Below, piece after piece: positions 39,863 through 42,494 of a DNA stretch of 60,552 nucleotides. Origin of the DNA: Arboricoccus pini (GTDB taxonomy: Bacteria; Pseudomonadota; Alphaproteobacteria; Geminicoccales; Geminicoccaceae); contig NZ_FYEH01000019.1 in NCBI RefSeq assembly GCF_900187945.1, positions 1 to 60,552 on the forward strand, read 5' to 3'. The notes below the pieces were generated by a model, which saw only the letters and a program-made list of their open reading frames with translations, had not been told where the DNA came from and did no database searches. Numbering within the stretch: position 1 is the first letter of the stretch; every line of letters starts with the position of its first letter. The position numbers and the translations under genes were made by a program.

Positions 39863-41553
39863 GAACCGCCGCGCGCGAAGCCACCCGCGCTCGATCGCCG
39901 ATGCCCACCCGGTCCTGCCGTGCGGGCATCGCTTGTCCTATCCTTGATCAGAAAGCTGTTTGATCGCGGCCTCGGCCATCCGTCAGCGCGGCGGCGTGAG
40001 GACCGGCACGACCGTCAAGGTCGGTGGGAAGAGAAGGCGAATGCCACTGGCCAGACGGATGAAGTCGAGATCTGAGTGACACTCACCGTTGGCGGTCGTC
40101 AACGAATCGATCTTGCCGCGCGCGACGACAGCATCCGGCGTATGGATCTCGACCCTCGATATTGTATCCGCTGCCATGAAGACTATATCGTTGGCAGAAT
40201 CGGGGATCAGATCGTCGATATTAAGCTTAAGATTATTGGACGGTGCTATAGTATCGACGTCACGCGGCAGCAAACCTCGCATCTCTTCCTCTCGTTCGGC
40301 GGCGTTGATTGAGCTTGTTTGCTCAATTCCATGCAAAATTGGGGCAAGTACAATAATCAACTTAAAGGTTACAGATCGCCGATCCCAGCAACCTTGGATT
40401 GTATTTCATCGCACTGTGTAGGTTGGCAGCAACACTACCTCATTTTAACTCGCATGCCAGCACCAAATTCTTGCAGTGCCTGGGATTTGACCTTAATTTC
40501 TGCGTTAGCATCCCGCTCTTTCTGGACAACCGCCATGGTGCACGTTGCTGACGCCGCTTCTGTGTTCTCGATTGAACTCGACCCCAAAGTGATCGAGATT
40601 GGCGATAAGGCGGTGGCACTCGTTGCTGCTGGCCGCGTTCTTCTTTGCGATCGCGACGCTTGGCTTGAACGCGAGGCACATAAGGCTCTCGTCGCCGCGG
40701 CCGAGCAGCTCGTCCTCGTCGTTCCCCTCGAGGTGCGGGACTGCCTCTAGACCATCAAACGACTCAAACTTGGCGATCTTGACGCTACCGCCCGTCCTTG
40801 CGGTGGCGATCCAGGCCAGGCGCGTAACGACCAATCCCTGTATAGGGACCAGGTGGAACCGTTCGGTCCAGCACCGTTGGTTGCGTTGCCATGCCGCACG
40901 AAGGCTTGGCAACTCGACAACCGCCGGCCCTCAAGGAATAAAGACCGCGATCCGACAAGCCTGGATGGTCAGCCGATGGCAACCGCTAGGCCAACGGAAC
41001 CTGCGCTCCTGATCGGCAAGTGATTGATGCAGGCAAGCCGATGGGCCTTGACGCCTCTCGCGTTAAAGACCCGACTATCGTTGCCGCAGGACCGGAAGCC
41101 GCAGTCGTTGCGGCACGCATAGGTAAAGCGCAGGGCGATCCTGGCTTCAGCTGGCGGTTCATACATAGTTCTCTGACAAGGCAATACTTCGGCTCACGCG
41201 TCCATTTATTGCGCCCGACGCAATCTGGCTTAGGCCATCGACACTCGGACGGGATCGCGACTGCTCCAGCCATCCTCGGCGAGACGTACCTTTCGCACCG
41301 CAATGGCGCGATCGAAGGGCGGCCCGAGACTGTCGCCATGGTCACACTCTCAAGCCGTGGCGGTTGAGGAGAAGCCACGATCTTGCCTTCCCTGACGAGA
41401 GGCAAACGCCTACCGGGCTCAAACCGACGTTCGCATAAGGCCCCTGCGATCGGACCGGTGGACGCGGCAAGGCGGCGACCGATAACGATGCCACCCGTTG
41501 TCCGCCTGATCGCCCCGTACGTATCTTGAACGGATGGTAAGGCCTCCAATATT
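39863..41553. other. 1.7-kb region without recognisable gene
   Basis: This stretch has overlapping open frames on both strands but no family resemblance and no clear ribosome binding sites. The part around 40080-40500 is poorer in GC than the rest of the window. The best protein-like frame is on the minus strand at 39983-40360. Others, such as plus 40319-40750 and minus 40505-40912, overlap each other and cannot both be real. It may be eroded DNA or a recent insertion. Confidence 0.4.
39983..40360 (-). CDS. Hypothetical protein (doubtful)
   Basis: Frame of 125 codons starting MIIVLAPILHGIEQ and ending LTVVPVLTPPR. The composition (acidic, with Ile/Val/Leu strands) is protein-like, but I see no motif, no signal peptide and no good ribosome binding site. 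An internal ATG at about 40282 would give a shorter form. It lies in a stretch of lower GC than its neighbours. Confidence 0.3.
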   Translation of the reverse strand: MIIVLAPILHGIEQTSSINAAEREEEMRGLLPRDVDTIAPSNNLKLNIDDLIPDSANDIVFMAADTISRVEIHTPDAVVARGKIDSLTTANGECHSDLDFIRLASGIRLLFPPTLTVVPVLTPPR

Positions 41554-41570
41554 CTTTGAATGATTCTAAA
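41554..41570 (+). promoter_or_regulatory. Irr-type iron control element (ICE) before mbfA
   Basis: CTTTGAA-TGA-TTCTAAA. The right arm is a perfect match and the left arm matches five of seven bases of the rhizobial Irr box TTTAGAA-N3-TTCTAAA (from memory). It ends 15 bases before the start codon. Irr binding there would repress mbfA under low iron, as known for MbfA genes in rhizobia and Agrobacterium. Confidence 0.65.
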
Positions 41571-41585
41571 AAATGAGTTCCTGAC

Positions 41586-42494
41586 TTGCGTAGCCCTACC
41601 GAGTTGAACGAACGCGAATGGCTGGCGTTGGCGATCCATGGCGAGGCCGAGGATGCGTACGTCTGTGCGGATTTCGCGCGCCATCTCGAGCCGTCGCCGG
41701 AGGCGGAGCGGCTATTGGAAATCGCGGCCGCTGCCCGCCGCCAGCACGACCGCCTCCTGGATCTCTACACCCAGCGATTCGGCACGCATGTCCCCTATAT
41801 GCGGCGTCAGGACGTCAAGGGCCTCTTCGTTCACCCGCCGGTCGGCGAGACCTGCGCCAAAGGCCGTCGGGTGATCGAAGAAGAAGTGGGGCGGATGACA
41901 CAAGCGGCCGCCAGTCTCTATGCTGGGCTCGCCGCCAGGACGACGGACACGCCGACAAGCCGGCTTTTCGACGAGCTTGCAAAGGAAGAGCGCGCCAGCA
42001 CGCCGACGCCGGAGGATGCCGAGGCCGCGCGCAAGCGGATGATCCTGCAGATCGTTCAGCCCGGGCTGGTCGGCCTCATGGATGGGTCGGTCTCAACATT
42101 GGCCCCCGTCTTTGCCGCCGCCTTTTCCACTCGCGATCCCTGGAACGCCTTCCTCGTCGGCCTAGCCGCATCATTGGGGGCCGGCATCTCCATGGGCTTT
42201 GCGGAAGCACTGGCCGATGATGGCAAGCTGTCAGGCCGGGGCGCGCCAATTTTGCGTGGCCTAGTTTGTGGTTTGATGACTGTGGCGGGCGGCATCGGCC
42301 ACACCCTTCCCTACCTCATCAAGGATTTCGTCACCGCGACGGTCGTGGCCGGCATCGTCGTCGTCATCGAACTGTTGACGATCGCCTGGATCCAGTGGCG
42401 CTTCATGCAAACGCCACCCGTCTCGGCCGCCGCCAAGGTCATGCTGGGCGGTGGCCTCGTGCTGGCGACAGGCATCCTGATCGGCAGCGGCTGA
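41586..42494 (+). CDS. mbfA: MbfA-like ferritin/VIT1 fusion membrane protein
   Basis: Protein of 302 residues: an N-terminal ferritin-like helical domain (1-145) and a C-terminal VIT1/CCC1 domain (about 150-302, VQPGLVGLMDGSVSTLAPVF, GLAASLGAGISMGFAEAL). MbfA proteins export iron and protect against peroxide. TTG 41586 is the likely start, because MRSPTELNEREWLALAI aligns with known MbfA N-termini. Two diiron-site motifs appear damaged: the first ExxH reads RRQH (51-54) and the second reads ERAS (135-138). The VIT1 part is intact, so it may transport iron or manganese without ferroxidase activity. An Irr-like box precedes it. Confidence 0.87.
   Translation: MRSPTELNEREWLALAIHGEAEDAYVCADFARHLEPSPEAERLLEIAAAARRQHDRLLDLYTQRFGTHVPYMRRQDVKGLFVHPPVGETCAKGRRVIEEEVGRMTQAAASLYAGLAARTTDTPTSRLFDELAKEERASTPTPEDAEAARKRMILQIVQPGLVGLMDGSVSTLAPVFAAAFSTRDPWNAFLVGLAASLGAGISMGFAEALADDGKLSGRGAPILRGLVCGLMTVAGGIGHTLPYLIKDFVTATVVAGIVVVIELLTIAWIQWRFMQTPPVSAAAKVMLGGGLVLATGILIGSG

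Follow-up and report, generated by a model that had tools for sequence, protein, structure and literature searches.

An MbfA-derived membrane protein of Arboricoccus pini with lost diiron ligands, a conserved VIT1 domain and a predicted Irr box

Introduction

Iron exporters of the MbfA type (NCBIfam family NF045676), described from Bradyrhizobium, Agrobacterium and Rhodobacter, join a ferritin-like domain (FLD) to a VIT1-type membrane half, and their genes are preceded by an Irr box. According to a review (PMC7762939, part of the text), the FLD of the Bradyrhizobium protein acts as a ferroxidase, and transport depends on it; in the same genus Irr represses both mbfA and the bacterioferritin gene bfr with high affinity (PMC4902296, part of the text). 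The role of the ferritin half in export is nevertheless not settled. Ligand mutants of the Bradyrhizobium protein reportedly lose export, E20A and E107A being said to abolish it in a JBC study of 2014, whereas related VIT domains occur without an FLD.

Such stand-alone VIT proteins make up nine of 17 plasmid records, from Thermus and Deinococcus. Two more are encoded in the same class as the gene studied here (L139 in genome G060 and L140 in genome G305); they have 162 and 165 aa and are close to the MbfA membrane half, and G305 carries its copy alongside a full-length MbfA. The plant protein VTL8 is described as transporting iron while lacking a cytoplasmic metal-binding domain, and in EgVIT1, where such a domain lies between TM2 and TM3, residues Asp43 and Met80 are essential (PMC10794610, part of the text).

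The gene described here lies in a 60,552-nucleotide stretch of the Arboricoccus pini genome (contig NZ_FYEH01000019.1), called the window below. It bears on the question of whether export depends on iron oxidation at the FLD or can do without it.

Results

Gene organization and comparison with described systems

The following features were assigned.

41586-42494, plus strand: ORF for a membrane protein of 302 aa derived from MbfA, start codon TTG (NF045676, 347.5 bits, cut-off 450)
41586-42044, plus strand: FLD, residues 1-153, diiron ligands lost by ligand count (PF02915, 32.5 bits, cut-off 22.8; predicted fold)
41736-41747, plus strand: RRQH, residues 51-54, replacing the helix-2 ExxH (translation and alignment with relatives)
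41898-41900, plus strand: T105, replacing the family Glu107 (alignment with relatives)
41988-41999, plus strand: ERAS, residues 135-138, replacing the helix-4 ExxH and adjoining a deletion of about 14 residues
42045-42491, plus strand: VIT1/CCC1-type transporter domain, residues 154-302, conserved (PF01988, 35 bits, cut-off 28.1; EgVIT1 fold match)
41554-41570, plus strand: predicted Irr box (ICE-like dyad), two mismatches to TTTAGAA-N3-TTCTAAA, at a distance to the start as in relatives

Both Pfam domains, Rubrerythrin (PF02915, residues 11-136) and VIT1, score above their curated cut-offs. The MbfA family covers residues 2-301 without reaching the curated equivalog cut-off; with the same library, seven of eight relatives gave 485-525 bits and the eighth, L068, 448.5. 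The family profile aligns across residues 1-301 in a single frame. On this sequence evidence the protein clearly descends from MbfA, yet it scores below the level set for a curated equivalog. TTG is the start in seven of 124 start codons, that of the window included, as counted with a start-picking script that favours ATG.

The two-domain layout, the VIT1 half and the box before the gene are shared with described MbfA systems, and so is a bfr gene behind a similar box, as in Bradyrhizobium. In contrast to these, the window protein is without three or four of six ligands by alignment, is about 14 residues shorter at helix 4 and falls about 100 bits short of the family cut-off. Stand-alone VIT proteins have the same transporter domain (51-58% identity) and, as predicted for the window protein, no diiron centre, but they are without an FLD, of which the window protein retains 153 residues. 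Like the plant protein MtVTL8, as described in part of PMC10794610, and judged by residue comparison, the window protein would transport iron with no cytoplasmic metal-binding domain, and both have an uncharged residue at the position of EgVIT1 Glu72 (A195 here, placed by motif spacing; A or S in the 182 relatives also); VTL proteins are eukaryotic and have no FLD. EgVIT1 (PDB 6iu3, 6iu4) has the fold of residues 154-302, and its metal-binding domain is absent from the window protein.

Diiron ligands of the ferritin-like domain

Relatives were collected by one scan of genome contigs (best 80 of 586 loci) and by searching genomes of the own family, one sample of the class and two of the order. 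The six family ligands, E20, E52, H55, E107, E137 and H140 in the numbering of L052, were assigned by the ferritin-like ExxH pattern, which matches the residues E20 and E107 reported for Bradyrhizobium MbfA. They read EEHEEH in all 182 full-length relatives (170 distinct sequences, some species being present through two collections), and the sextet was kept by every relative at 103, at 152 and finally at 182 sequences. At the same columns the window protein reads E-R-H-T-E-S, with a gap in place of S in the 103-relative alignment. It retains E20 and the helix-4 Glu (E135), has other residues in place of E52 and E107, and lacks H140 next to the deletion.

The state of H55 depends on the register. 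It is retained as H54 when a one-residue gap is placed inside helix 2, and an ungapped helix gives the pair A50/Q53 instead. The gapped register scores higher (mean 28.8 versus 18.6 before gap cost), the ungapped one being better in one of 122 comparisons; in the AlphaFold2 model, helix 38-65 runs unbroken across the region where that gap would fall. By alignment, three or four of the six diiron ligands are thus lost, H55 being doubtful. A normal two-iron centre in this FLD is very unlikely, and a single-metal site may exist. The preliminary description had placed RRQH and ERAS at residues 51-54 and 135-138, which is correct, and had concluded that one Glu and one His ligand were lost; the alignment with relatives confirms the loss of the diiron site and revises its extent to E52, E107 and H140, with H55 in doubt.

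Two cysteines, C27 (41664-41666) and C90 (41853-41855), are found in the FLD at places where none of the 182 relatives has Cys; the C27 position is Tyr in 178 of them.

A ligand loss like that of the window was found neither among the own-family matches read (24 of 31 genomes matched, the window included), nor among those read from the class sample (385 genomes) and one further genome, nor in the best 80 of 586 loci of the contig scan. The two order samples (395 and 397 genomes) gave none in the 30 matches read from each, out of 221 and 226 matched genomes, and other broken FLDs may be among their weaker matches. No relative read shares the loss, which leaves its age, or selection on it, without support; there is only one genome in the genus, and hence no sibling by which the loss could be dated. 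Among the papers listed in literature searches, none describes an MbfA that lacks the diiron ligands. Judged by alignment, the window protein is a genuine variant of a known exporter, the only one of its kind so far, and its ferroxidase centre is destroyed.

Contrast between the two halves

The losses are concentrated in the FLD. Among 123 aligned rows, the window protein has lost 14 of 35 conserved FLD columns versus one of 61 in the VIT half (Fisher p 1.1e-6), and the intact VIT1 domain reported earlier is borne out by the 60 columns retained. The rows comprise the window and 122 relatives, four window copies, two short proteins and one with a stop having been dropped; at most six FLD columns are lost in the 122 (L068), and 97 of the 123 rows have lost none. 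Among pairs of relatives whose VIT identity is 0.85-0.91 (n=213), FLD identity has a median of 0.71 and a minimum of 0.39; the window and L034 share 0.88 in the VIT half and 0.37 in the FLD.

On a VIT-domain tree of 23 rows, the end branch of the window is mid-range for the VIT half (0.11) and the largest of all for the FLD (2.00), where lengths fitted on that tree may be inflated. In the comparison with L034, the FLD has pN 0.44 at pS 0.68 and the VIT half pN 0.08 at pS 0.60; with synonymous sites close to saturation, the FLD value does not distinguish relaxed from altered constraint. Judging from these comparisons, ordinary purifying selection seems to have acted on the VIT half over a span in which the FLD changed heavily. 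D166 and M203, which correspond by motif to EgVIT1 Asp43 and Met80, are present in the window and in all 182 relatives.

L068 (5001-5939), a member of the same clade, also has a fast FLD, with the second largest end branch (1.05; VIT 0.11), six conserved columns lost and all six diiron ligands present. It may stand at an earlier point of the same trend.

Predicted fold

AlphaFold2 with 46 sequences gave a helical bundle followed by a VIT fold (mean pLDDT 88.1, pTM 0.54). By VIA-align, residues 154-302 match EgVIT1 (6iu4) with Z 18.2 and rmsd 2.0 over 144 aligned residues. Residues 2-154 match the ferritin-like chain 2fzf (Z 16.8, rmsd 4.2) and many Dps and bacterioferritin chains at 14-16, to be read against a VIA Z of 13, given as common for helical bundles, where the ferritin-like matches lie at 14-17. 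A Foldseek search with the model returned nothing at E <= 0.001. By sequence, no solved structure was significant for the whole protein or the VIT half; the family profile, unlike the single sequence, matches solved ferritin-like chains. Folded from its single sequence, the FLD alone reached a mean pLDDT of 63.4, with 35-49 over about residues 81-130, so that its good fold leans on the alignment of relatives. According to the model, the FLD is probably still a four-helix bundle.

Irr box and regulation

The dyad CTTTGAATGATTCTAAA at 41554-41570 is separated by 15 bases from the TTG start (41586), as had been described, and was scored against the Irr consensus TTTAGAA-N3-TTCTAAA. With up to two mismatches, this pattern occurs once in the window and in none of 100 shuffles, so the dyad is not a chance match. 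The upstream regions compared (n=126, window included) contain a match with up to three mismatches in 26 cases versus 0.6 for mononucleotide shuffles; sixteen of these boxes begin 29-42 bases before the start (the window at 32), and the other ten at 46-79.

Three sites genome-wide have up to two mismatches: the window box, one on contig C8 inside a mechanical 471-aa ORF, and one on contig C9 that ends 35 bases before a bacterioferritin start. At up to three mismatches no enrichment was found across the genome (19 sites versus 29 in the reversed control), and the genome-wide evidence therefore consists of the three two-mismatch sites and their places. The genome has two Fur-family genes. One is irr (IrrA 185 bits, cut-off 150; Irr 172.6, cut-off 170), and the other is nearest to Zur, below the cut-off. 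With box and regulator gene both present, the Irr control proposed earlier stands on sequence grounds. The box and the similar one before bacterioferritin point to iron as the metal; manganese, offered in the preliminary description as another substrate, finds no support of its own.

Phylogeny and origin

In a VIT-domain tree of 40 chosen rows, the window gene falls outside the mbfA genes of its own family; it belongs to a 14-member group (98/92) that also contains Acetobacteraceae, Lichenihabitantaceae and others. Joining it with one own-family group was rejected (p-AU 5e-05), and with a second group was not rejected at the 5% level (p-AU 0.058). A larger quick tree agrees, but none of its starred sets holds the window. 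This placement suggests a horizontal origin of the gene. The second, intact MbfA that had been envisaged elsewhere was not found in the assembly, given as 99.32% complete, which has one VIT1 gene and one MbfA match only; a further copy could lie in an assembly gap. Horizontal replacement is likely, given this single VIT1 gene and the placement away from the own family.

Discussion

The reading we favour, with a probability of about 0.55, is that of an iron-regulated VIT-type Fe(II) exporter that would work without a ferroxidase centre, the FLD being a surviving scaffold. When iron is plentiful, Irr would leave the box at 41554-41570 and the gene would be expressed. Fe2+ would then pass from the cytoplasm straight into the VIT1 pore, the route proposed for plant VTLs that lack a cytoplasmic metal-binding domain (PMC10794610, part of the text), and be moved out without prior oxidation or collection at the FLD, whose four-helix bundle would persist without a diiron centre. 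From the sequence and the model we infer the folding of the FLD, the binding of Irr, the export of Fe2+ and the scaffold role. An exporter freed from its diiron centre is favoured because VIT proteins without an FLD exist, because VTL8 offers a parallel, and because D166 and M203 are kept. The normal constraint on the transporter half, the Irr box with an irr gene, and the finding of no other VIT1 gene also speak for it. Against it count the requirement of the FLD for transport in Bradyrhizobium (PMC7762939, part of the text), the reported loss of export in the E20A and E107A mutants, E107 being among the residues missing here, the TTG start, the lack of a relative sharing the loss, the poor single-sequence fold and the possible inflation of the FLD branch.

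Several of these points would equally suit a gene in early decay, in which a horizontally acquired mbfA is no longer needed and the FLD decayed first, the transporter half being not yet damaged. The Bradyrhizobium requirement, the TTG start, the deletion of about 14 residues, the tree position away from the own family and the isolation of the window among the relatives read all fit this course. A useless gene, however, would decay in both halves, whereas the FLD branch has 2.0 changes per site and the VIT branch 0.11; it would also lose its frame, yet the profile runs through in one frame, and the Irr box is retained. We rank early decay second, as rather unlikely. A third-ranked and doubtful reading gives the FLD a new use, as a non-catalytic docking or dimer domain (for example for iron from bacterioferritin) or as a new site built on E20, E135, C27 and C90. 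A two-hybrid assay showed the Bradyrhizobium MbfA FLD to interact with Bfr, and that FLD reportedly forms dimers (PMC4902296, part of the text); the window genome has bfr behind an Irr-like box, the two cysteines occur in none of the 182 relatives, and the helices are kept in the AlphaFold2 model; but no sibling sequence exists to show conservation of the new residues, and Bfr binding by a ligand-less FLD is hypothetical.

A further reading, rather unlikely, is a naturally evolved, ferroxidase-free MbfA whose old FLD is kept for docking or gating and which exports Fe2+ handed over directly, for instance from bacterioferritin. If so, what the FLD does as a ferroxidase would be separated from its structural role. 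That an ordinary mbfA was garbled by assembly or sequencing is very improbable. The variant is known from one genome only, which an error could explain, but the 14 changed columns are spread over the FLD, its gaps are in-frame, and the genome is given as 99.32% complete with 0.2% contamination. Decay of the whole gene is disfavoured by the contrast between FLD and VIT domain. A pair of frameshifts in the FLD was also considered, and inspecting helix 2 by eye in a different frame revealed nothing family-like.

With its transporter normally constrained and its iron control indicated by sequence, a natural protein that appears to have no diiron centre would be a natural test of whether export needs the FLD.

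Sequences upstream of mbfA genes

The 1.7 kb or so before the window gene (39863-41585) has a lower G+C content, 0.556 at 40001-41000. Seven ORFs between 39986 and 41684 gave no family above cut-off (five against Pfam, two against NCBIfam), and the region may be insertion debris.

Upstream of mbfA in L079, L086, L097 and L105, a TTGAGAAGCATTCTCA-like dyad takes the place of the Irr box and begins 67 bases before the start. It resembles a Fur-type box, and a switch of regulator between groups of mbfA genes is possible from these sequences.
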